This document shows, one piece after another, positions 286 through 28,161 of a DNA stretch of 28,161 nucleotides (within the stretch, counting starts at the first letter, position 1; every line of letters starts with the position of its first letter). The notes under the pieces were generated by a model. It searched no databases and was not told where the DNA came from. It saw nothing but the letters and a program-made list of their open reading frames with translations. The stretch covers positions 10,001 through 38,161 of the forward strand of contig JACVTC010000365.1 in assembly GCA_016946835.1 (NCBI GenBank), read 5' to 3'. Origin of the DNA: Neocallimastix lanati (nom. inval.). Lineage: Eukaryota; Neocallimastigomycota; Neocallimastigomycetes; Neocallimastigales; Neocallimastigaceae. The translations under genes and the position numbers were made by a program.

Positions 286-504
286 AGTTAGTTAAATCTT
301 TTAAATAATCAAAATTAGTTATAATATATTAAATTATAGATATTTAGCTATTTCTTATAATAATTATACCTCGTAAATATTATAATTAATTTTAATATTT
401 TTATATATTTTTCTTGTAATTATAATTAACAAATACATCAAATACATGTAATACTTTGTAAATCTTTAATAAATAAAAGAATTTAAAACCTAACACCTAG
501 CCTA
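286..504 (+). mobile_element. Degenerate copy of subtelomeric element family A, with decayed telomere junction
   Basis: Read on the plus strand, this matches the reverse complement of the first ~230 bp of the segment at 25008-27576. Shared blocks include GTTAGTTAAATCTT, TTCTTGTAATTAT, AAATACATGTAATACTTTG and TAAATAAAAGAATTTAAAACC. It ends in CCTAACACCTAGCCTA (489-504), a decayed CCCTAA array at exactly the place where intact copies have telomeric repeat. Its orientation is opposite to the array at the right end, as would be expected at a left chromosome end. It has no coding capacity and many substitutions, so it is old. Confidence 0.7.
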
Positions 505-1665: not shown

Positions 1666-8343
<6,678 letters not shown>

Positions 8344-8344
8344 T

Positions 8345-8537
8345 TAATTTATATATATTTTTATTTTTATTTTTATTTTTATTTTTATTTTTATTTTTAT
8401 TTATATTTATATTTATATTTATATTTATATTTTTATTTTTATTTATATTTATATTTATATTTATATTTATATTTATATTTTTATTTTTATTTTTATTTTT
8501 ATTTTTATTTTTATTTTTATTTTTATTTTTATTTTTA

Positions 8538-8568
<31 letters not shown>

Positions 8569-8728
8569 TTTATTTTTATTTTTATTTTTATTTTTATTTT
8601 TATTTTTATTTTTATTTTTATTTTTATTTTTATTTTTATTTCTATTTTATTTTTATTTTTATTTTTAGTTTTATTTTTATTTTTATTTTTATTTTTTGTT
8701 TTTGTTTTTGTTTTTATTTTTATTTTTA

Positions 8729-8776
<48 letters not shown>

Positions 8777-8777
8777 T
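8345..8777. repeat. TTTTTA/TATTTA microsatellite, (TA)n and T-tract upstream of ABCA
   Basis: The block begins within two bases of the ABCA start codon. It contains TTTTTA and TATTTA hexamers (~8360-8690), TTTTTG variants (~8696-8715), (TA)~11 at ~8735-8758 and a T tract of ~19. As the immediate upstream DNA of the minus-strand gene it must include the 5' UTR and core promoter. No promoter element can be distinguished from the repeat. Confidence 0.85.
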
Positions 8778-8917
8778 GGAAATTATTAATTATTTTATTT
8801 ATTTTAATTTTTAAAAAAAATGTTATATATATTATTATTATTATTTATATAATTAAATAAAATAACTATTATAAATTTTGAATAAATGTATTAAATAAAA
8901 AAAAATCATTCACATAT

Positions 8918-9370
8918 TAATATTTTTTTTTTAAGAAATAAAATATTAATAAAAATAATAGTAATATCCACTTTAGATTATTATTAAAAAAAATTATTAA
9001 ATTTATTAAAACTAATAATAAATAATAATAATAATAATAATAATAATTATAATAATAATAATAATAATTAATAAGATTTAAATTTAATTTTAATTTATTA
9101 TAAAATAAAAAAACAAAATATATTAAAAATTGGAAAAAAAATTAAAATTTATGATACATAATATATATGTATAAAATAAACTAATAATGAAATTTATATT
9201 ATATATAATATTTAATTAAATATTTAATTTATATACATTATAAAAAATTAAATTATAATATATCCTTTTTTGGAACAAAATTTTAAATTAATGTAAATTA
9301 AACTTTATATTTCTTAATTCATTTGGGAATATATGAACATATGAACAGTAACGGAAAATAAATAAATAAA
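8918..9370. repeat. Dispersed repeat, copy 1 (copy 2 at 20160-20820)
   Basis: This is a direct duplicate of sequence at 20160-20820. Near-identical blocks include TATCCACTTTAGATTAT, ATTTATGATACATAATATAT, TATATCCTTTTTTGGAACAA, TAATGTAAATTAAACTTTAT and GAACAGTAACGGAAAATAA. Copy 2 has ~250 bp of extra sequence in the middle. Non-coding in both copies. It lies upstream of the ABCA gene. Confidence 0.85.
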
Positions 9371-10134
9371 TAAATAAATTATAAAAATAATATTTATATA
9401 TAAAAAAATTAATATTGACAAATATAATGGATATTTTATTTTTAATTATTAATTATTTATATTCATCCATTTTATTATTACTGTATATTTTATTTTTATT
9501 ATTATGTTCTAATTTGGAAATTATTTATTGCTCTAATGTAATAGATGATGTTAATTATAATTATAACAATAATAATTCTAGAATTTTGAATTAAAATTTT
9601 TAAGTAGTAATTAAACCATTGTTAATATTTATTCTATTTTTCAATTTAAATAATAATAATAAAAAAAAAAAGAAAAAAGAAAAAAATATTGAAAAAAAAA
9701 ATTGAAAACCGCCAAATGTTTCATATACTGTAAATTTTAAATATTATAAAAGTATTAAAATAAAATATACAAAAATGTAATAAATTTGCTTTATATAATA
9801 ACGAATGATAATTAAATAATAAGATTATAATATTCTTTGATATTAAAATAATATAAAATACTTAACTTAAATTTGAAATTAGCCTAATAAAAATTATTTT
9901 ATATTATTATATTAAATAATTTAATTTAAATATATTATAATTTTTGTTTAATAAATAATTTATTTCATTTTTTTTACTTATCATTAATTTGAATATGAAA
10001 ATTAAGATATTACATTTTTTATATTTCAAAAATATAAACATATATCTTACATTATATATTAATACATTAAGTATAAATAAATATATGTATATATGCAATT
10101 ATATATTTTTATATTTTTATTATTTTAATCATCA
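9371..10134. other. AT desert, no gene seen
   Basis: Only short open frames and A/T runs are visible, with GC below about 15 percent. The short minus-strand open frame over 9907-10098 is composed of K, I, N, Y and L and shows no domain. No RNA gene or mobile element was recognised. Confidence 0.5.
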
Positions 10135-10303
10135 TAATTATAATTATTATTATTATTATTTATATTTTAATAACCATTATTATTTTTATTATTATTATTA
10201 TTTTTTATATTTTAATAATCATTATTATTTTTATTATTATTATTATTTTTTATATTTTAATAACCATTATTATTATTATTATTATTTTTTATATTTTAAT
10301 AAC

Positions 10304-10334
<31 letters not shown>

Positions 10335-10351
10335 TTTTATATTTTAATAAC

Positions 10352-10421
<70 letters not shown>

Positions 10422-10435
10422 TATATTTTAATAAC

Positions 10436-10466
<31 letters not shown>

Positions 10467-10516
10467 TATATTTTAATAACCATTATTACTATTATTATTA
10501 TTTATATTTTAATAAC

Positions 10517-10553
<37 letters not shown>

Positions 10554-10648
10554 TATATTTTAATAACCATTATTACTATTATTATTACTTATATTTTAAT
10601 AACCATTATTATTATTATTATTATTATTATTTTTTATATTTTAATAAC

Positions 10649-10706
<58 letters not shown>

Positions 10707-10801
10707 TATATTTTAATAACCATTATTACTATTATTATTACTTATATTTTAATAACCATTATTATTATTATTATTATTATTATTTTTTATATTTTAATAA
10801 C

Positions 10802-10853
<52 letters not shown>

Positions 10854-10948
10854 TATATTTTAATAACCATTATTACTATTATTATTACTTATATTTTAAT
10901 AACCATTATTATTATTATTATTATTATTATTTTTTATATTTTAATAAC

Positions 10949-11018
<70 letters not shown>

Positions 11019-11220
11019 TATATTTTAATAACGATTATTATTATTATTATTATTTATATTTTAATAACGATTATTATTATTATTATTATTTATATTTTAA
11101 TAATCATTATTATTATTATTATTATTATTTATATTTTAATAACCATTATTATTATTATTATTATTATAATTATTATTTATATTTTAGTAAGCATTATTTT
11201 TATTATTATTATTATTATCT
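10135..11220. repeat. ATT minisatellite with 18-bp spacer and higher-order structure
   Basis: Runs of (ATT)6-22 are separated by TTATATTTTAATAACCAT about 24 times. Some spacers have TTTTT, CATTATTACTATT or AACGATT variants. At ~10500-11000 a three-unit block (short run, run ending TTTTT, long run) is repeated three times, giving a ~140-160 bp higher-order period. The same unit occurs in ABCA intron 2. Because the spacer is 18 bp and the runs are trinucleotides, one plus-strand frame stays open for ~400 codons, but the product would be only repeated LYFNNH and Tyr runs. I do not call it a gene. Confidence 0.9.
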
Positions 11221-12531
11221 AAAATAAAAAATATTTATAAATTTTAAAAAAATTTAATTATTTATTTATTTATTTATATATTTAATTTTTATAAGACAAA
11301 TTTTGAGAAAAATACTTTTCAGAAATGCATCACATAACAATATATATATATATATATATATTTTTATAAACTAATATATTAATTATAAATATACATAAAT
11401 ATATACATATATTAATATTTTTATATCATTATTTATTATTTTCTATATTTTTATTATTATTATTTTCTATATTATTATTATTTTTATTTTTATTATTATT
11501 ATTATTATTATTGTTATTATTTATACTTTATATATATTATTATATTATTTATACTTATATTTTTATTATTTATAATATTATTTACACTATTATTTTTACT
11601 TTTTATATTAATATTAATTTTAAATTATTATTGCTTTTTAGTGTTGTTGTAAAAATCTAATAATTCTAAAAAAACTTCAAAATAAATAATTAATAATAAC
11701 AAAACATGTTGATACAAATAAATAAACTTGACTCAATAACTCATCAATATAAATCTATCTTAGCTTCAAAATGTATCTATATAAATCATTAAATTTAACA
11801 CTTCAGTCAAATTAATACCTCCTCCGCCAAAATAAGAAATATTAGAGAAAAAAAATTAATAATAATAATTTTAAATAATAATTATTAGAAATATATAAAT
11901 ATTTAATTTTTAAAATATATCACATAAAATAATAGAAATATATAATAAAGAAAATATCATATATAATAATAGAAATATAAATAATAAATTTAGAAATAAT
12001 AATAATAAATAATAAATAATAAAAATAAAAAAAAAAATAAAAAAAAATATAAATAAATAAAAGTAAAATAAAATAAAATAAAATAAAATAAAAAAAAAAA
12101 AATAAAAAATATAAAAATAAATAAAAAAAAAAAAAAAAAAAATTAAAAATTAATAAAAATTATCAAATACAATATTTATAATTGTTTGAAATTATTATAT
12201 AATTATTATTATAATATTTTTAATTTATATTACCCCATCATTATTTTAATAATATTGCATATAAAACTAAGATAAAAACATACTTTACAAAACAATTCTT
12301 TATTCACATTACGTATATCATCGTAATAAATAAATAATTATAAAAATATAATAAAATAACTATAAAAAAATTAAGAATAATATACTAGTATTTTAAAGTA
12401 TTTTTTGGTATTAAAAAGTTAATGAATATATTTTATTTTATTCTATAACTTCGCCTTATATACATGAAATATTTAAATATTATTGGTTGATTTAATATTA
12501 TAATTTAAGATTAATTTATATTACCTAACAG

Positions 12532-12563
<32 letters not shown>

Positions 12564-12900
12564 AAAATAAAAATAATAACATTGATTAACATATTAAAAT
12601 AAAAATAATTAATATATGTTATTTTGATAAAATAATACATTTGTATTATTGTATTAAACTTAATATATTTAATTATCATTTTAAATTTATATATCTAAAA
12701 GTTAATTTTTTAATAAAATTTATTACATGTTTATTAAAAAATTATTTATTCATTAATATTTATTAAATTAAATTTTCTTTATAAATATATATATATTATT
12801 AGTTTATATATATTATTAATTTTTTTTTAAAAAAAAAATTTTTAAATTTTATCATAGATAAATTTCAATTGTTTTCTAAGAGTTTTATAATTAAAAATAA
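11221..12900. other. AT desert downstream of ABCB, with A-tracts and a possible coding relic
   Basis: It contains (TA)11 at ~11340, ATT runs to 11530, (AAATA/AAAATA)n at ~12000-12120 and a 30-A run at 12532-12561. One patch (11640-11850) is less simple. On the minus strand 11843-11766 reads 25 codons (…SYFGGGGINLTEVLNLM…) then a stop, which could be a decayed exon. Nothing else is recognisable. The 3' UTR of the ABCB gene lies at the right edge. Confidence 0.5.
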
Positions 12901-17610
<4,710 letters not shown>

Positions 17611-20159: not shown

Positions 20160-20820
20160 TATTTATATATATTTTTTTTTTTTAAGAAAAATATAATAAT
20201 AATAATAATATCCACTTTAGATTATAATTAAAAAAATTAATAAATTTATAAAAAAAATAAATAAAAAATAATAATAATAATAGTAATAAATATATAAAAA
20301 TTAATATCCACTTCAGTTTATTTTTTCAGAATTATAAATAAAAAATATTTAATAATATAAAATAATACCTTTTTTAGTAATAATTATAATTTTTAATTGA
20401 TATTTAATAAGTAGTTAATTATTTAAAAATTTAATTATATATATTTAGTAAAAAAGAAAAAACTAAAAAAATAACAAAATATATATACAATTCACAGAAA
20501 TGTCTAAATGAAACAAATAATAATAATAATTAATAAGATTTAAATATAAATTTAATTTATTATAAAATAAAAAACAAAATATATTAAAAATTGGAAAAAA
20601 AATTAAAATTTATGATACATAATATATATGTATAAATTAAACTAATAATGAAATTAATATTATATATAATATTTAATTAAATATTTAATTTATATACATT
20701 ATAAAAAAGTAAATTATAATATATCCTTTTTTGGAACAAAATTTTAAATTAATGTAAATTAAACTTTATATTTCTTAATTCATATGGGAATATATGAACA
20801 GTAACGGAAAATAAATAAAT
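20160..20820. repeat. Dispersed repeat, copy 2, truncated by telomeric repeat
   Basis: Direct duplicate of 8918-9370 with ~250 bp of extra DNA (~20270-20515). Where copy 1 continues as AAATAAATAAATTATAAAAAT, copy 2 stops in AAATAAAT and passes straight into AGGGGTTAGGG at 20821. It is the last chromosome-specific DNA before the terminal array. Confidence 0.85.
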
Positions 20821-20959
20821 AGGGGTTAGGGTAGGGGTTAGGGGTTAGGGGTTAGGGTTAAGGGGTTAGTTAGGGTTAGGGTTAGGGGTTAGGGTTAGGG
20901 GTTAGGGGGTTAGGTAGGGTTAGGGTTAAGGGTTAGGTTAGGGTTAGGTTAGGGTTAGG
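20821..20959 (+). repeat. Interstitial telomere tract (TTAGGG)n, ~139 bp
   Basis: Imperfect TTAGGG/TTAGGGG repeats with the G-strand on the plus strand, the same orientation as the terminal telomere. It marks a former chromosome end, later extended by the element array. It ends with TTAGG directly joined to TTTTAAA of segment E1. Confidence 0.95.
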
Positions 20960-21059
20960 TTTTAAACGTTATAATTTTATTTAATAAAATTAATCAAAAT
21001 AGTTAATACATTATTAATGTATATATAATTTAAGAAAAATCATTATTGATTTTCAAGAA
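20960..21059 (-). mobile_element. Telomeric element E1 (family B), 5'-truncated, 100 bp
   Basis: As read, identical to the first ~100 bp (3' end) of E4 at 23818-23917, starting TTTTAAACGTTATAATT. It stops at TTCAAGAAG and passes into GGGGTTAGGG. It contains both 3' stem-loops (21006-21022 and 21036-21053). Sense strand is minus: the constant 3' end faces the centromere and the truncated 5' end faces the telomere. Confidence 0.85.
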
Positions 21060-21074
21060 GGGGTTAGGGTTAGG
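21060..21074 (+). repeat. Telomeric spacer between E1 and E2
   Basis: GGGGTTAGGGTTAGG, joined directly to TTTTAAACTTTG of E2. Confidence 0.95.
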
Positions 21075-23725
21075 TTTTAAACTTTGTAATTTTTATTAAA
21101 ATTATTCGATTAGATAATACATTAATTAATGTATATATAAATTATATGAAATCATGACTACATGATTTTAAGTAAATTAATACATTTTTAGTAAAAAAAT
21201 AAAAGTTCGATAAAGTAAAAAAAAAGTATATATCTATAAAGTTTAGAATTTTAAGGAAGAGAAAAATTATTCTTTTAAAGTAAATGAATAATAAAAGTAA
21301 TTCTAATAAAAGAATTTTTGTAATTATCTAAAAGAATATAAAGTTTTTATAATCTAGTAGAATATTTTAAAATAAAATTTATAAAGAAATTAAATTTTAG
21401 TTTGTTCGTAAAGTAAGTATATTTAATTAAAACTGAAATCGTATGAAATATATTTATTCATTGATATATTTCATAGATTCAATAATATCCTCAGAACTAT
21501 AATCCATAGGATTTAATGGATTAATAGTTGTACTGAGAATATTAGGGGAATTGGATATTATAGTGTCACTATACATATCCATCCCGGCTTCATGGTAGTG
21601 CTCAATTGGCACTGTAGGAGTTAACGTTGAGGAGATAATTGAATCATTATCATCCTCCGTGTTTAGGCTGTCATCCTCAAAGAGTTCAGACGTACCTTTG
21701 AACTCTGGGGATTCAAGAGGGCCACTTGGATTAGCAGCCTTAAAAGCAGCAAAGCCCTTTGATGGGCTAACAACCCTTTCCTTTAGCGCAAGGGCAAAGG
21801 CAGAGATGGCTTCTTTACTAGAGCGGAGGGCAGCATTAGCTACTTCCGAGGTCGAGCCGGGCGAGTTAGCTGGAGCATCATTGATGGTAGCTGGAGCATT
21901 ATCGTGGGCACAAACCGAAGAAGGAGCAGCGAAGTTATTACCTGAGGTAGAGGCTTCTACATTAAGAGAAGCTTCATCAGGAACAGCAGTAGGCGTAGGC
22001 GTAGGAATATTAAATTTGGTAAATTTAATATTCTGGATAACATTAGAAAAGAAGTCCTTAATATAATCAGGACTTCTTTTTCTATTAATAGTTTCAGATA
22101 TTCTTCGGTAGCATGCTTTTTCTACTCTAAGAATATCTTCATCATTAGCTGTAGAGGCATTGTCAACAGCAACAGGGTTAAAGTTTTCGAGAACTTTGAA
22201 TGAGTTTTCAAAAACTTTAAGGATGTTAATAATCATTGGTTTGGATCTTTTGAGAACTGTAAGTTCGCAAATGTCTTTACCAATGAACGAGACATTTTTA
22301 ATATAAAAATGTCGTATTCCAAGATTACTAAGGCATTTTTTGATAACCCAGATGGGTTGCCTTTGAATGCCTTTAATATATACTAAGTCAAGATCATCCT
22401 TTCGGATGATCTTAGGTTGCCTCATAATGAGGCTCAGGATACTTTCCTGAATTAAGGGGAGGCCATCTTCCTGACTTCTTATTCGTTGAAGCTGTGGAGG
22501 AAGATGGTCGGCATTCTTCTCAAGGGAATCTGTAATATCCTTACATTTTCCCTTTTTTTCTTCTATCATTTTTTTGATCCTCTCCTTTTTCTCTAATATT
22601 TCAAGAGAAAGTCGAGAGGGGGAGGCTTCAGACTTATTTTGTAGCACCGTACTAAGTGCTACTGAGTTGTTCTGAGCCTTGAAAATTTGGGATGAAAGTT
22701 TAACTTTCTCCTTTTTCCAAGACTCTTCTAGGCTTCTTATTGATTCAGTAAGATTGGAAATTTCAATCTTACTATTATAACATAAATTTTTTAAATGAGC
22801 GTTCTCAGTTCTAAGACGATTAAATTCGTCTAAATCGAACTGATTGAGCTCTTTAGGGGCCGAATTTTGGCAGCTTGAGAGATATCTCTCAATGCTAGGA
22901 TTTCGTTCATCTTCTTCCAAGGGGTTATTTTTTCTTTTACCAGTCCCTTCGGTCACTGGCTTCTTGAATAACCTTTCTTGGCTTAAGATATCTACTTCTT
23001 TCGTTGTGGAGGGAATCACAGGCTTTAAGATAGGCTCTTCAGTAATCATGGGATTACTGACGGTCTTTCCAACGAGTTCTTCCCCAGAGTTAGCTTCTTT
23101 CATCGCAGCATCTTGGGTAGGTGCTGCGATGACTAGAGTAGTACCGTTAGAAGAGGTAGTAGGTTCAGCAGAGAGGAGGGTTTGATTTACATCAATCTCC
23201 TCTTTGTCGTTCATTTCTGGTCTACAATAATCATATTTGCACCAGAAATGGTTTCTCAAACTAGGCACCATCGTGAGTAGCTTCTTTACTGGTACCGGTT
23301 TGAAGAGGTCTTCATTAGTTTTGTCCTTGGGATTAGGACTTTGGAAGGGGAGAGATATGACCTGTCTCCCATTCTTGAATAGGATAAGAGGTATGTTATC
23401 ATTTCCCTTACTGAGAGAGACGATCTTATGATTATAAAGATCAATAAGATACGCCTTAAGAGCACTAAAGGTGCAGCTATTGTTGCATTTCTTTCGTTTG
23501 TTCGAGCAGTAGAGGCGGGTATGACTTGTCTTAGTAAAAATTCCCCCGCATCTTCTGCAGCGGATCGGAATAGGGCGTCCGTCCGCGCTTTGGTTTTTAC
23601 CACTAAGAATAAATGACAAGTGGTAAACACCGGCGTAGCTTAAGACTTCTTCCCCTTTAGATGGCATTATAAGATATTAAAAATTTATAAGAATATTTAA
23701 TTATAAAGAATATTTTTATTTAATA
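21075..23725 (-). mobile_element. Telomeric element E2 (family C) carrying the Gag-like ORF
   Basis: A ~2.65-kb segment bounded on both sides by telomeric repeat. On its sense (minus) strand it has a ~58-bp 5' leader, a 737-codon ORF (23667-21454) and a ~380-bp 3' region ending in GTTTAAAACCTAACCC. Two perfect hairpins lie near the 3' end at 21117-21134 and 21149-21168. There is no poly(A) tail and no reverse transcriptase, endonuclease or telomerase-like ORF. The 3' ~100 bp align with those of E1/E4, so E2 is a diverged member of the same superfamily. The intact ORF together with an intact 3' end argues against simple 5' truncation of a LINE. Confidence 0.8.
21454..23667 (-). CDS. Gag/LINE-ORF1-like protein of telomeric element, 737 residues
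   Basis: An intact single-exon ORF of roughly 40 percent GC in DNA of ~15 percent GC. Residues 37-65 hold cysteines C37, C40, C54, C61 and C65 with H49, a zinc-finger-like cluster but not the classic CCHC knuckle. A second pair is C143/C148. Residues ~278-382 are charged and heptad-like (coiled coil). Residues ~426-495 form a compact block with VYIKGIQRQP, LGIRHFYIKNVSFIGK and CELTVLKRS. From memory, this resembles a domain in ORF1 proteins of fungal non-LTR retrotransposons. From 550 on it is Ala/Ser/Pro-rich, then acidic. Gag/ORF1 proteins bind element RNA and bring it to the target. A role in carrying element RNA to telomeres is inferred from position only. Start ATG 23667 is the first in frame, 58 bp inside the element. 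It could alternatively be an unrelated subtelomeric nucleic-acid-binding protein. Confidence 0.75.
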   Translation of the reverse strand: MPSKGEEVLSYAGVYHLSFILSGKNQSADGRPIPIRCRRCGGIFTKTSHTRLYCSNKRKKCNNSCTFSALKAYLIDLYNHKIVSLSKGNDNIPLILFKNGRQVISLPFQSPNPKDKTNEDLFKPVPVKKLLTMVPSLRNHFWCKYDYCRPEMNDKEEIDVNQTLLSAEPTTSSNGTTLVIAAPTQDAAMKEANSGEELVGKTVSNPMITEEPILKPVIPSTTKEVDILSQERLFKKPVTEGTGKRKNNPLEEDERNPSIERYLSSCQNSAPKELNQFDLDEFNRLRTENAHLKNLCYNSKIEISNLTESIRSLEESWKKEKVKLSSQIFKAQNNSVALSTVLQNKSEASPSRLSLEILEKKERIKKMIEEKKGKCKDITDSLEKNADHLPPQLQRIRSQEDGLPLIQESILSLIMRQPKIIRKDDLDLVYIKGIQRQPIWVIKKCLSNLGIRHFYIKNVSFIGKDICELTVLKRSKPMIINILKVFENSFKVLENFNPVAVDNASTANDEDILRVEKACYRRISETINRKRSPDYIKDFFSNVIQNIKFTKFNIPTPTPTAVPDEASLNVEASTSGNNFAAPSSVCAHDNAPATINDAPANSPGSTSEVANAALRSSKEAISAFALALKERVVSPSKGFAAFKAANPSGPLESPEFKGTSELFEDDSLNTEDDNDSIISSTLTPTVPIEHYHEAGMDMYSDTIISNSPNILSTTINPLNPMDYSSEDIIESMKYINE

Positions 23726-23739
23726 GGGTTAGGGTTAGG
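23726..23739 (+). repeat. Telomeric spacer between E2 and E3
   Basis: GGGTTAGGGTTAGG, following TTTAATA of E2 and joined to TTTTAAATTC of E3. Confidence 0.95.
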
Positions 23740-23806
23740 TTTTAAATTCTTTTATTTATTTAAGATTTACAAAGTATTACATGTATTTGATAAATATAAT
23801 AATTAC
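23740..23806 (-). mobile_element. Telomeric element E3 (family A), 5'-truncated, 67 bp
   Basis: Matches the first 67 bp of E5 and E6 (TTTTAAATTCTTTTATTT...ATAATAATTAC) and then switches to TAGGGGTTAGG. It retains the palindrome TACATGTA. This is the shortest copy in the array. Confidence 0.85.
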
Positions 23807-23817
23807 TAGGGGTTAGG
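23807..23817 (+). repeat. Telomeric spacer between E3 and E4
   Basis: TAGGGGTTAGG, joined to TTTTAAACG of E4. Confidence 0.9.
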
Positions 23818-24986
23818 TTTTAAACGTTATAATTTTATTTAATAAAATTAATCAAAATAGTTAATACATTATTAATGTATATATAATTTAAGAAAAATCA
23901 TTATTGATTTTCAAGAAGTTTAATTATTAAACTATTCTAGCGACTATTATTATTTTAAACAAATAATAATAGAAAATAAGATTTTTATTTTAGATATTAA
24001 AATCTATTCTAAGATTTTTAAACTATTCTATTTGTAACAAAGAATTCTATACTATTCTAGAGAATTATTATTAAGAAAATAATAATAATTATAGCAAGCG
24101 AATAATAACTTTAAATATTAAGTAATTATTATTGTAAAATAATAATTAATACAATCTTTAAGAATTAATATTATTATAAAAATAATAATTAATACATGAG
24201 TTTATAATTATTATGAGAAATAATAATTAATACATGAGTTAATAAATAATACATTTTAAAATAGAAAATTATTATTATTATGAAAATAATAATAATTAAT
24301 ACATGATTTTATAGAAGATTATTATTATGAGAAATAATAATCAAACAATTTTGATTAAAAAATATTGTTATTATATAAATAATAACAATTATACATAAGT
24401 TTATTAAATAGATTATTATAATAATAAAATAATTAATTATTAAATAAATAATAATTAATTAAAAGTATTGTTAATTATTATAACAATCATAGAGAATAAA
24501 GAAAATACATCCCAAGAAGGTAAGGTCGGAGAACCGAGAACCAAAAAAAGGGATCCAAAGAATCCAGAATAACCCAAAGAATAGACAAGAGAACTAAAAG
24601 ACAAGAACTCTGAATCAAAGGAGTACCCTGGAGAATAAGCAAACGAGAATCCAACAACCAATCAAGTAACCAGAAGAATAACCGAAAGAGAATCCAGCAA
24701 ACCAACAAAGAGTAAACCGGAGAGTTCAGCAAGACAACAGAAATCCTGAAAACCAAAAGGAACCAAAAAATCATTCCAAAAGGAAACCGGAGAGATTACA
24801 TTCCAGTAATCAAAAGTGAGAACCGGAGTTTAAATCAAAAAGAGTCCAGCTAACAAAAGTGTCAACTGGAAGAGTTTAAAGACATTCCAGAAAACAGGTT
24901 AAAAAACCTGAATTCTGGGCGAATTATTTAAATATATTTTATTTTATTTTGATATAATGAATATTGCAAACGAATACTCATTAATA
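23818..24986 (-). mobile_element. Telomeric element E4 (family B), ~1.17 kb, non-coding
   Basis: The 3' 100 bp equal E1, with stem-loops at 23864-23880 and 23894-23911. Next, 23960-24480 is a run of imperfect palindromic units of the type AATTATTATGAGAAATAATAATT. A 430-bp patch (24485-24910) then has a plus strand rich in A and G and poor in T, with recurring CCAGAA, CCGGAGAG and AACC words. That patch ends in a perfect hairpin CAGGTT-AAAA-AACCTG (24895-24910). The short minus-strand open frames there are Leu/Phe/Ser-rich compositional artefacts. The 5' end CATTAATA resembles that of E2 (TTTAATA). Confidence 0.8.
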
Positions 24987-25007
24987 GGGTTAGGGTTAGG
25001 GGTTAGG
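24987..25007 (+). repeat. Telomeric spacer between E4 and E5
   Basis: Three and a half telomeric units, including one TTAGGGG, joined to TTTTAAATTC of E5. Confidence 0.95.
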
Positions 25008-27576
25008 TTTTAAATTCTTTTATTTATTTAAGATTTACAAAGTATTACATGTATTTGATAAATATAATAATTACAAGAATAAAATATAATAATATAAAAA
25101 TTATTTAAAGTATTTACTAAATATAACTATTATAAGAATTAATAAGTAATTTGAAATATTAAATATTATTACTAAGTTAAAATTAATAAAGATTTAACTA
25201 ACTAATAAAATTATTTAAAATTAAAATATTTAAAGTTTGATAAAAATTATAAATTTAAAGTTATTAAAGTTTTGATCAAAAGTAAATTAAAGTATTTAAA
25301 GTTTTGATTAAAAAGTAAAGCGGACATACTAAATATGTCCATTATCTAAAAAAGGAAAATATTCTAATTAACTATATCTAAGAGAAAATTTATGAAAATT
25401 TAACAAACTTAAAATTCATATACTGAAATCCCATGAGGAATTTCAATATCTTGACTATCTCTAAAAGGAAATATTAAAAAAATAACTATTATTAAGTATT
25501 AATAACTATAAGTAATATAACTTATTTAAGAAATTAGAATATATAATTATTAAAAGTAAATAATTATATAAGATAATAATCTAAGTATTATATAAGATAT
25601 TAATCTAAGTATATAACTATAAAAAGTAATAATAAAAATATATAATTATATAATTATTAAAATAAATAATTATATAAATGAATAAAATATATAATTATAA
25701 ATGAAATATAATTATATAATAAAATAAAAATATAATTATTAAAACAAATAATTATATTAGGTAATAATAAAAATATATAATTATAAGTAAATAATTATAT
25801 AAGTGAATAAAATATAATAAAATATATAATTATTATAAGTAAATAATTATATAAGTGAATAAAATATAATAAATTATATAATTATTATAAGTAAATAATT
25901 ATATAAGTGAATAAAATGTATAATTATAAAGAATATATAATTATATAATAAAATAATAAAAATATATAATTATTAAAAGAAATAATTATATAAATAAATA
26001 ATAAAATATATAATTATAAAAAGTATATAATTATATAAGTAAATAAAAAGTATATAACTATTAAAATAAATAATTATATAAGATAACGATAAAATATATA
26101 ATTATTTAAAAATAAATAATTATATAAGTAAATAAAAGTATATAATTATAAAAGATATATAATTATATAAGTATATATAAGTATATAATTATAAATGATA
26201 TATAATTATATAAGTAAATAAAAAGTATATAATTATTTAAAAAATAAATAATTATATAAGTAAATAAAAGTATATAATTATTTAAAATAAATAATTATAT
26301 AAGTAAATAATAAAAATATATAATTATAAAAGGTATATAATTATACAAGATAATAAAAAGTATATAATTATTAAAAGAAATAATTATATAAGAAAAAAGA
26401 GAAGTATATATAATTATTTAAAGAAAATAATTATATAAGAAATTAAAAAATATATAATTATAAAAGATATATAATTATATAATAAAATAAAATAAAAGTA
26501 TATAATTATTAAAAGAAATAATTATATAAGATAATAAAAAATGTATAATTACTTAAAGTAAATAATTATACAAGAAAAGAAAAGAAGTATATATAATTAT
26601 TAAAAGAAATAATTATATAAGATAATAATAAAAAGTATATAATTATAAAAATATAAAATTATATAAAATGATAAAAGTTTATATAAAATTATATAAAATG
26701 ATAAAAATTTATATAAAATTATATAAAATGATAAAAGTTTATAATTATTATCTAAAGATAATAACTATAATAAAATAAGAGTTAATAATTAAAAAATAAA
26801 GGGTAAATAAAGTAAAGTAATTATTAACCAAAGTAAATAAAATAAATAAAAAAAGGTAAGGTTGAAAGAATAATAAAGGTTATAAAAATATAATTATTAT
26901 AATGAAAAAAAATAAAAGGTATTATATAAATATTTAAATTATTATGAAGACATAATAAAATAAGATATATATATATAGAGATAATTTATAAAAGATAATT
27001 TATAAAAGATAAAAATAAAAATAAAATAAAAAAAGAATAAAAGAAAATAAAAAATAAAATAATAATTATTCTTATGTTATTTATATATAATTAAATAAAA
27101 AGATTAAAAAAAAATAAATCTTTTAATAATTTATATATAAAGGGAACACAAGAAAAATTTATAATAATTTATATATAAAGGGAACACAAGAAAAATTTTT
27201 AATATAAATTTTTTAAATATAAATATAAAAGAAGAATTATAATAAAAATTATAGAATTATATTAAAAGTAAAATAAAAGGATAACTATTGTAAAAGTTAA
27301 AAGGGTAAATAAAGAAAGGAAAAATTATAAAACTATATAATTAATAAAAATCTAATATGTAAATAAATAAAAAAAATATATTTTATACTAAATAAAAACT
27401 ATATATAAAATAATTTAATTCTTTAATAATAAATAATAAAATAATAATAAAAATTATTATAAAAATTATTTATTAAAAAATTATTAAATTATTTTATATA
27501 AGAGAAAAAAAAATAAAATATTAAAAATTAAATGAATTAAAAAGTGCACTTTTAAAATAATTATTTAACATTATTT
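25008..27576 (-). mobile_element. Telomeric element E5 (family A), ~2.57 kb, non-coding
   Basis: The longest family A copy. From the 3' end: a unique ~260-bp part shared with E6; a perfect hairpin GGACATA-CTAAA-TATGTCC (25322-25340); and ~1.1 kb (25540-26640) of tandem ~45-60-bp units. These units consist of self-complementary ATATAATTATT / AATAATTATATAA motifs. Further on are TTATATAAAATGATAAAA repeats (26650-26745) and a 38-bp direct repeat containing AAAGGGAACACAAG (27141 and 27179). No ORF is supported. The long palindromic non-coding body recalls the long patterned 3' UTRs of some telomeric retroelements. Confidence 0.8.
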
Positions 27577-27590
27577 GGGTTAGGGTTAGG
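27577..27590 (+). repeat. Telomeric spacer between E5 and E6
   Basis: GGGTTAGGGTTAGG, joined to TTTTAAATTC of E6. Confidence 0.95.
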
Positions 27591-27851
27591 TTTTAAATTC
27601 TTTTATTTATTTAAGATTTACAAAGTATTACATGTATTTGATAAATATAATAATTACAAGAATAAAATATAATAATATAAAAATTATTTAAAGTATTTAC
27701 TAAATATAACTATTATAAGAATTAATAAGTAATTTGAAATATTAAATATTATTACTAAGTTAAAATTAATAAAGATTTAACTAACTAATAAAATTATTTA
27801 AAATTAAAATATTTAAAGTTTGATAAAAATTATAAATTTAAAGTTATTAAA
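27591..27851 (-). mobile_element. Telomeric element E6 (family A), 5'-truncated, 261 bp
   Basis: As far as I can read, identical to 25008-25268 of E5, then cut at AAAGTTATTAAA and capped by GGGGTTAGGGG of the terminal telomere. The identity implies a very recent addition. It is the outermost element. Confidence 0.9.
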
Positions 27852-28161
27852 GGGGTTAGGGGTTAGGGGGTTAGGGGTTAGGGGTTAGGGTTAGGGTTTA
27901 GGGGTTAGGGTTAGGGGTTAGGGTTAGGGGGTTAGGGGTTAGGGGTTAGGGGTTAGGGTTAGGGTTAGGGGTTAGGGTTAGGGGTTAGGGTTGGGTTAGG
28001 GGTTAGGGTTAGGGGTTAGGGGTTAGGGTTAGGGGTTAGGGGTTAGGGGTTAGGGGTTAGGGTTAGGGTTAGGGTTAGGGTTAGGGGTTAGGGTTAGGGT
28101 TAGGGGTTAGGGTTAGGGGGTTAGGGTTAGGGGTTAGGGGTTAGGGTTAGGGTTAGGGTTA
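27852..28161 (+). repeat. Terminal telomere, TTAGGG/TTAGGGG, at least 310 bp
   Basis: The G-strand reads 5'->3' to the window end, so this is a right chromosome terminus. Units mix TTAGGG, TTAGGGG and occasional TTAGGGGG, with rare slips (GGGTTGGG, GGGTTTAGG). The mixture could be real telomerase slippage or homopolymer error in long reads. Confidence 0.97.

Follow-up and report, generated by a model that had tools for sequence, protein, structure and literature searches.

Systems similar to the one described here are known from two plant-pathogenic fungi, although the one examined here differs from both in gene parts and layout. In Magnaporthe (Pyricularia) oryzae, the long interspersed nuclear elements (LINEs) MoTeR1 and MoTeR2 reside in TTAGGG telomeres as head-to-tail arrays with short tracts, occur in forms with and without a reverse transcriptase (RT), and show 5′ truncation with de novo telomere formation as well as array expansion and tandem amplification; the endonuclease of MoTeR1 is putatively of REL type, one MoTeR1 terminus bears a telomere-like TTCGGG(TTTGGG)n run, and MoTeR2 has both ends in common with MoTeR1 (available text of PMC7367193). 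The FoTeR elements of Fusarium oxysporum, a member of the Ascomycota, are telomere-associated LINEs with the 5′ end toward the terminus, 3.0-8.0 TAACCC telomere repeats after the 3′ end, truncated copies, and a REL domain bearing an RHD/RHN motif (accessible portions of PMC12857005). Here we report an array of six segments set between telomere tracts in the gut fungus Neocallimastix lanati. The stretch analyzed, called the window below, comprises the right-hand 28,161 nucleotides (nt) of a 38,161-bp contig (C296:10001-38161) in an assembly of 762 contigs and 199 Mb, which was built on PacBio Sequel reads with a mean length of 7.8 kb, according to the available text of PMC8561657. We consider it likely that this is a telomeric LINE array in which elements alternate with telomerase capping. 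The initial annotation of the window had taken such a system to be undescribed in fungi, a view contradicted by the published MoTeR and FoTeR parallels. For gut fungi, no report of telomeric retrotransposons was found among the titles and abstract openings listed by searches of the open-licence literature, which is weak evidence of absence, and the main text of PMC8561657, as far as accessible, has no occurrence of 'telomer' or 'transpos'.

Judged from their sequence, the array segments are pieces of LINE-type retrotransposons. The sense strand of all six is the minus strand, and TTTTAAA forms the centromere-side start in 6/6. The parts of the array are as follows, in window positions, with the 5′ boundary of each of E1 to E6 ambiguous by 1 to 3 bases:

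20820-20959, plus strand: centromere-proximal telomere tract of degenerate TTAGGG/TTAGGGG, 140 nt, the longest of 74 distinct junction tracts
20960-21059, minus strand: E1, 5′-truncated, with a type A 3′ end at 20960; 100 nt, identical to the E4 prefix
21060-21074, plus strand: telomere tract GGGGTTAGGGTTAGG, 15 nt, holding the left boundary of the block shared with contig C750
21075-23724, minus strand: E2, a type B short element with only open reading frame (ORF) 1; 2.65 kb, with a 5′ end position that recurs in five short-copy groups
21454-23667, minus strand: gene within E2 for a 737-aa ORF1-like protein, with an N terminus that is Cys-rich by eye, predicted helices and a likely RRM-like fold
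23725-23739, plus strand: telomere tract, 15 nt
23740-23806, minus strand: E3, type C 3′ end; 67 nt, an exact prefix of E5
23807-23817, plus strand: telomere tract TAGGGGTTAGG, 11 nt
23818-24986, minus strand: E4, type A; 1.17 kb, with a sole ORF of 95 aa
24987-25007, plus strand: telomere tract, 21 nt
25008-27576, minus strand: E5, type C; 2.57 kb, AT-rich, with a 3′ end shared with the RT-C elements
27577-27590, plus strand: telomere tract, 14 nt, with an identical junction in C750
27591-27851, minus strand: E6, type C; 261 nt, an exact prefix of E5
27852-28161, plus strand: terminal telomere tract, 310 nt, reaching the contig end

Six same-orientation segments between tracts of 11-21 nt had been described in the initial annotation, and both the coordinates and the tract lengths (15, 15, 11, 21 and 14 nt) agree with this, as do the exact matches of E6 and E3 to the start of E5 and of E1 to the start of E4. 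Its constant proximal end holds for TTTTAAA, common to all six, but there are three 3′ sequence types instead of one: A (E1 and E4), B (E2) and C (E3, E5 and E6). E5 has no ORF of 90 aa or more, and type A copies longer than E4, of 2.3 kb, are present on C177. The sequence TTAGGGTTAGGG occurs 22 times in the window vs. an expected 0.01. The terminal repeats mix TTAGGG with TTAGGGG, both at 27852-28161 and at another array end (locus L070, 9418-9851), and long G runs at the extreme end of C177 may reflect sequencing error.

The junction between telomere repeat and element is the same across the genome. The exact junction 15-mer GGGTTAGGTTTTAAA is found at 169 genome sites (72 plus, 97 minus), and its reversed control at none in the 199-Mb genome. 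The next bases assign 165 of these sites to a type (A, 78; C, 58; B, 29). Of these, 53 are on 19 long contigs (known length, at least 100 kb), 72 on contigs below 100 kb, and 40 on contigs of unknown length. Where such long contigs carry a site within 50 kb of an end, the 5′ side of the element faces that end in 42/42 cases, and orientation is single in 31 of the 33 multi-site contigs, C1 and C665 being mixed. When 3′ ends were located by tract-free fuzzy anchors in 71 loci (269 kb of DNA), 98 of 105 matches carried exactly GGGTTAGGTTTTAAA, in a sample biased toward the exact 15-mer because 30 of the loci (L039-L068) had been chosen by it; L001-L038 were picked by similarity and L069-L071 by position. 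Four of the seven deviant matches retain GGTTAGG (C191 and C97 in TTAGG-type tracts, C35 with a shortened T run, C58 with an extra G), one is a degenerate GTTAGG copy (C296:10481), and two are not telomere junctions, namely a poly(T)-flanked copy in C57 and a chance reverse-strand match in C97. The degenerate copy is a decayed type C 3′ end (GTGTTAGG-TTTTAAATTC) at window 481-495 (C296:10481-10495, minus strand), an internal relic that faces the window start. Another TTTAAACG 3′ end in C57 (3500-3640; L050/L069) is immediately preceded by a long poly(T) run that breaks up a type A stretch; here a copy with a poly(A) tail may have inserted into another A copy. Scanning viral contigs with the junction 15-mer gave 88 candidate stretches.

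At non-telomeric internal sites (C14, C67, C24, C22 and C1), at least GGGTTAGG abuts unrelated DNA, and most of these sites add no more than 3 telomere-like bases. Therefore, this 8-mer is probably part of the element RNA, which would end in CCUAACCC and prime on telomere repeats. The genome also has two adjacent Telomerase_RBD matches (28.5 and 27.4 bits, cut-off 25; C106:51156-51495), and none was found in 14 control genomes. The initial annotation had staked its reading on orientation and 3′-end pattern at other chromosome ends, and neither speaks against it. Its core idea is supported: a fixed 3′ end joins the retroelements to telomere repeats, their 5′ side points outward, and the genome has a telomerase match.

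We also examined the coding capacity of the intact elements, characterized from the RT ORF downstream to the 3′ junction. Locus L064 has an open LINE RT frame, cut on its 5′ side by a telomere tract, that matches RVT_1 (E 8.5e-36), and the solved structures nearest to a relative of this RT (P0008) are those of LINE-1 ORF2p. The C-terminal part of another RT (a 209-codon frame) lies in L070 upstream of a type B ORF1, within the same element and with no tract between them; it is identical to a public 1172-aa protein, P0035, over 181/181 residues. Searching the genome with P0035, with the best 39 of 13,590 first-look candidates scored so that frame and copy counts are lower bounds, gave at least five stop-free 1201-aa frames at 100% identity (C299, C175, C191 twice, C126) and at least five stop-free frames of 1479-1484 aa at 49-50% (C297, C497, C191, C507, C175); further matches are partial or decayed copies with up to 37 stops. 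Seven copies at 94% identity or more reach the C terminus (the five 1201-aa frames, a truncated copy on C177 and a decayed one on C1), and in 7/7 ORF1 or its remains lie downstream of the RT in the same sense, with the 3′ junction beyond them at a distance of 4.1 kb from the RT (0.8 kb in C1). LINEs usually carry ORF1 upstream of ORF2, an order that is not the one found in these seven copies. Among the matches at 44-54% that reach residue 1078 or beyond, 8/12 (C297, C497, C507, C175, C126, C1, C177 and C5) have a type C junction 4.3-5.0 kb downstream. The stretch C126:43221-46563 has no exact junction 15-mer in the genome-wide search. Partial or decayed matches on C108, C141, C39, C112, C190, C527, C80, C97 and C2 and upstream fragments on C1 were left out of both copy counts.

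The N termini of these proteins point to an APE-type endonuclease. Eight N termini, headed by P0035, were combined into a profile, which matches three LINE-1 endonucleases across the whole domain (E-values 5e-5, 1.5e-4 and 2.4e-4); all eight agree fully at the asparagine, E-x-W, GD-x-N and DH positions. P0035 alone lies below Pfam detection for PF03372; when seven RT proteins were scanned together, P0040 was above the cut-off and P0045 below. Relatives of the RT occur in Orpinomyces, more distant ones in Entomortierella, and many more in unnamed records. Those from Orpinomyces (P0009, P0034) hint that similar arrays may exist in that fungus. It is likely, as part of the same overall reading, that N. 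lanati has at least two autonomous lineages of APE-endonuclease LINEs: RT-A/B, with a 1201-aa RT protein and a downstream ORF1, and RT-C, with a protein of about 1480 aa and a 4.3-kb 3′ region.

An APE-type endonuclease with conserved N, E-x-W, GD-x-N and DH would also suit an enzyme of the SART/TRAS kind that nicks within a long TTAGGG tract, so that each element is inserted internally, with telomere on both sides, instead of being added to a chromosome terminus. Long terminal tracts in which this could happen do occur, at about 80 to 450 nt: about 80-90 nt in C126, 250 in C57, 280 in C481 and C197, 310 in the window, 320 in C131, 410 in C666 and 430-450 in C177, all of these being lower bounds, with C481 and C197 looking like mutual copies. 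However, the telomere tract before an element is far shorter than most of these. It measures 25 nt or less at 69 of the 74 distinct junctions (106 in all), with a median of 16 and a minimum of 8, and only five tracts are longer (27, 28, 48, 136 and 140 nt). Internal insertion is thus a possibility that we hold to be the lesser one, and addition to short, exposed tracts is preferred.

The histories of individual ends bear on how the elements were shortened. In C296, E6 runs for 261 nt and then meets the terminal telomere, and at the same junction in C750 (C750:9942) more than 1.5 kb of the same type is present. Similarly, contigs differ in the length of the A copy at the shared junction ttgtaacaaagaat-GGGTTAGG: C666 and C497 have about 260 nt of it, C126 has 1526 nt, and C269 and C347 have more than 1260 nt. 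The copy of about 260 nt has a terminal telomere cap in C666, and in C497 a 15-nt tract stands between it and a type C element. Where an A copy ends at 1526, a telomere caps it in C57, and GGGGTTAGG and another A follow it in C126, with different 3′ neighbors in the two contigs. We read these long and capped pairs as before and after states of loss, capping and addition, although haplotype or recombination histories are possible. The initial annotation had attributed the variable 5′ ends to 5′-truncating reverse transcription, and many breakpoints are indeed unique to one array, as random truncation predicts. However, the pairs that share a junction, with a long element in one contig and a short, telomere-capped one in another (E6/C750 and the A copy), argue that abortive reverse transcription is probably not the sole source, and some 5′ ends recur precisely; that it is the main source seems to us somewhat doubtful. 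A table of telomere seeds for 5′ ends was set aside and not used because the AT-rich background makes such seeds weak. In C666 (980743-981663; L005), an open frame of 307 codons runs right up to the array's first telomere tract, as would be seen after chromosome breakage within a gene and subsequent healing.

Some of the short elements appear to be units in their own right. Among 21 copies examined that cover the start of ORF1, 11 have 5′ ends that agree to within about 4 nt, just upstream of ORF1, and these fall into five groups (C296/C750; C126/C269/C347/C497/C666; C177; C239; and C175/C402, with type A 3′ ends); therefore, E2 is probably not a random truncation. The other ten extend into the spacer (C126, C157, C175, C177, C191 twice, C197, C297, C299 and C481). 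A type C short form likewise has a recurrent 5′ end, at nine sites when counted with the following tract, three of which have copies that differ in length (2888, 2905 and 2941 nt). In sequence, the short forms correspond to the 3′ portion of the long element, and their recurrent 5′ ends are probably real RNA starts.

The E2 ORF product has seven related proteins, 4/7 from N. lanati, and no Pfam family above cut-off. A structure model made with the first Met left out predicts helices at residues 278-332 and 351-383, by our own reading a coiled coil, and a likely RRM-like fold at about 420-499; Foldseek returned no match to this model at E 0.001 or better. Residues 403-543 have 30% identity (1e-11) to residues 354-490 of a LINE protein from the mortierellomycete Entomortierella. 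In that protein the RT match (584-788) comes after the ORF1-like part, so the gene order of the N. lanati elements looks reversed. When type A- and type B-ended elements are compared in 100-column blocks, most of the 1.4-kb spacer shows 94-100% similarity, which is lower, down to 88%, in two blocks, and ORF1 is 60-97% alike. Elements on C191, C299, C126 and C175 (L019, L020, L030-L032) are mosaics of this kind, with a near-constant spacer and an ORF1 that differs by up to 40% per block. A clean swap of the RT module at the short-unit start was considered and dropped: the 5′ untranslated regions are alike too, which places the breakpoint near the start codon, and we treat the pattern as mosaicism only.

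In the mechanism that we favor, both lineages would make RNAs ending in ...UUUAAAACCUAACCC, with expected 3′ ends AAAACCUAACCC and with starts expected near AAATAAAAATATTC for type B and at the recurrent 5′ end for type C. By target-primed synthesis, the element RT would copy long RNAs, and in trans the short RNAs of the downstream units, onto a G-rich strand ending in GGTTAGG, leaving the element with its 5′ side outward and its 3′ end locked in telomere register. The exposed end would then erode or break, telomerase would cap it again, and a new element would join the short tract; recombination would additionally copy array blocks from end to end. One could go further and propose a two-tier rescue, in which telomerase keeps most ends and those worn to 1-3 repeats are lengthened from LINE RNAs, the final eight bases of which, CCUAACCC, serve as a telomerase-like annealing template, with the RT gene and the ORF1 or noncoding unit as separate transcription units and the short units as the usual caps, copied in trans by the long-element enzyme. 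As a whole, this fuller scheme is speculative and rather unlikely.

Array blocks are shared between chromosome ends: C296 and C750 are identical at 4171/4171 bases over window positions 21065-25235, and over 26000-27851 they have two differences, both in E6. The homology starts inside the E1-E2 telomere tract, and C177 ends in a tandem duplicate of an A109-A2326 unit. Both observations would be expected if these were subtelomeric repeats like the Y′ repeats of yeast, spread by recombination between tracts only (break-induced replication and unequal exchange), with the RT genes as passengers. Such a history is improbable, since three different 3′ sequences meet the telomere at one base and in one register, 5′ ends vary while 3′ ends are constant, the 8-nt GGGTTAGG is also found at non-telomeric internal sites, and intact frames of 1201 and about 1480 aa for endonuclease and RT lie in the same units. 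That the arrays are misjoined repeat reads is very improbable and was rejected as a whole explanation: the short mean reads, the AT-rich and repeat-rich DNA and the mere 38 kb of C296 would favor it, but there are 74 distinct junctions in one register on many contigs, largely in a single orientation, including junctions at the ends of contigs above 1 Mb (C57 and C157).

Several observations weigh against the telomeric LINE reading. On the long contigs of known length, 11 of 53 sites are more than 50 kb away from any end, 9 of these pointing to the nearer end. Four of the 12 RT-C class matches have no type C junction (C58, C128, C168, and C191, where the match reaches the edge of its contig), and no RT gene was tied to the noncoding type A group (E1 and E4) here. 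E6 exactly equals E5, yet it is two bases off its C750 counterpart, and as the rest of C296 and C750 that was compared is identical, E6 may have arisen by gene conversion from E5. The short interstitial tracts could be survivors of later loss, and the first Telomerase_RBD match contains two stop codons, which could reflect an intron or decay. The ORF1 model is poor overall (pLDDT 41.5), and its best RRM-like match (Z 8.2) is at the edge of chance, a level that the tool calls common, and for this reason we grade the fold as likely and no higher. Finally, the support comes from assembled sequence; with a mean read of 7.8 kb, misjoins within single arrays are possible, and some contigs may represent the haplotypes of a single locus.

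Two further observations concern DNA outside the terminal arrays. At C128:110299-114637 and C168:167122-171467, a degenerate 3′ end separates neighboring decayed stretches that are ORF1-like and RT-like, which may be an old array located far inside these contigs. In the proximal part of the window (1666-17610) there are large minus-strand ORFs, ABC-transporter-like by eye, with asparagine runs.

Compared with the telomeric elements of animals, the N. lanati system differs from each in some respect. Athena elements, or terminons, of bdelloid rotifers are attached to telomere repeats by their 3′ ends and have a Penelope-like RT without an endonuclease, unlike the LINE-kind RT (RVT_1) with an APE domain found here. 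In Drosophila, which has no telomerase, the Gag-only and RT-bearing forms of HeT-A, TART and TAHRE share chromosome ends with the 5′ side outward and attach by oligo(A); N. lanati, in contrast, has a telomerase match, and its junctions are telomere repeats. SART1 and TRAS1 are APE-type LINEs. Unlike these, N. lanati elements have the RT ORF before ORF1, and in place of a poly(A) 3′ end they have AAAACC without a poly(A) run, with exactly GGGTTAGG-TTTTAAA in 98/105 anchor matches and one poly(T)-flanked exception inside C57. SART1 and TRAS1 target telomere repeats in Bombyx mori (available part of PMC7265360); Athena is named in PMC10088271, and HeT-A, TART and TAHRE are a topic of PMC5537684, as far as the accessible portions of both go.

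MoTeR and FoTeR are the nearest systems by behavior. Telomere-capped truncated copies, tract-bounded sharing and tandem amplification in N. lanati recall MoTeR as the available text portrays it, and a telomeric position, a 5′ end toward the terminus (42/42 near long-contig ends) and truncated copies recall FoTeR, again within what its accessible report describes. The same sources indicate that both differ from N. lanati in endonuclease type and 3′ end: the N. lanati endonuclease is APE-type, and in contrast to MoTeR the 3′ end carries the telomere-like 8-mer and the short forms correspond to the 3′ part of the long element. A C-terminal REL endonuclease would have a CCHC followed by RHD or RHN; by eye, the L070 ORF has the CCHC and no RHD/RHN after it. 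Membership in the REL-type group of MoTeR and FoTeR is ruled out by the APE-type endonuclease, and because the REL feature was not seen, the N. lanati system works like MoTeR but is not a member of its kind. The fixed 3′ junction with its 8-nt telomere match makes the priming step directly testable, and from the natural series of ends (long, truncated and capped, truncated with a new element) one could read in which order loss, capping and addition took place where a telomerase match is also present. If our reading is right, an early-diverging fungal phylum has also given rise to telomeric LINEs, here with an endonuclease of APE and not of REL type, and the telomeric habit therefore looks convergent, not the feature of one clade.

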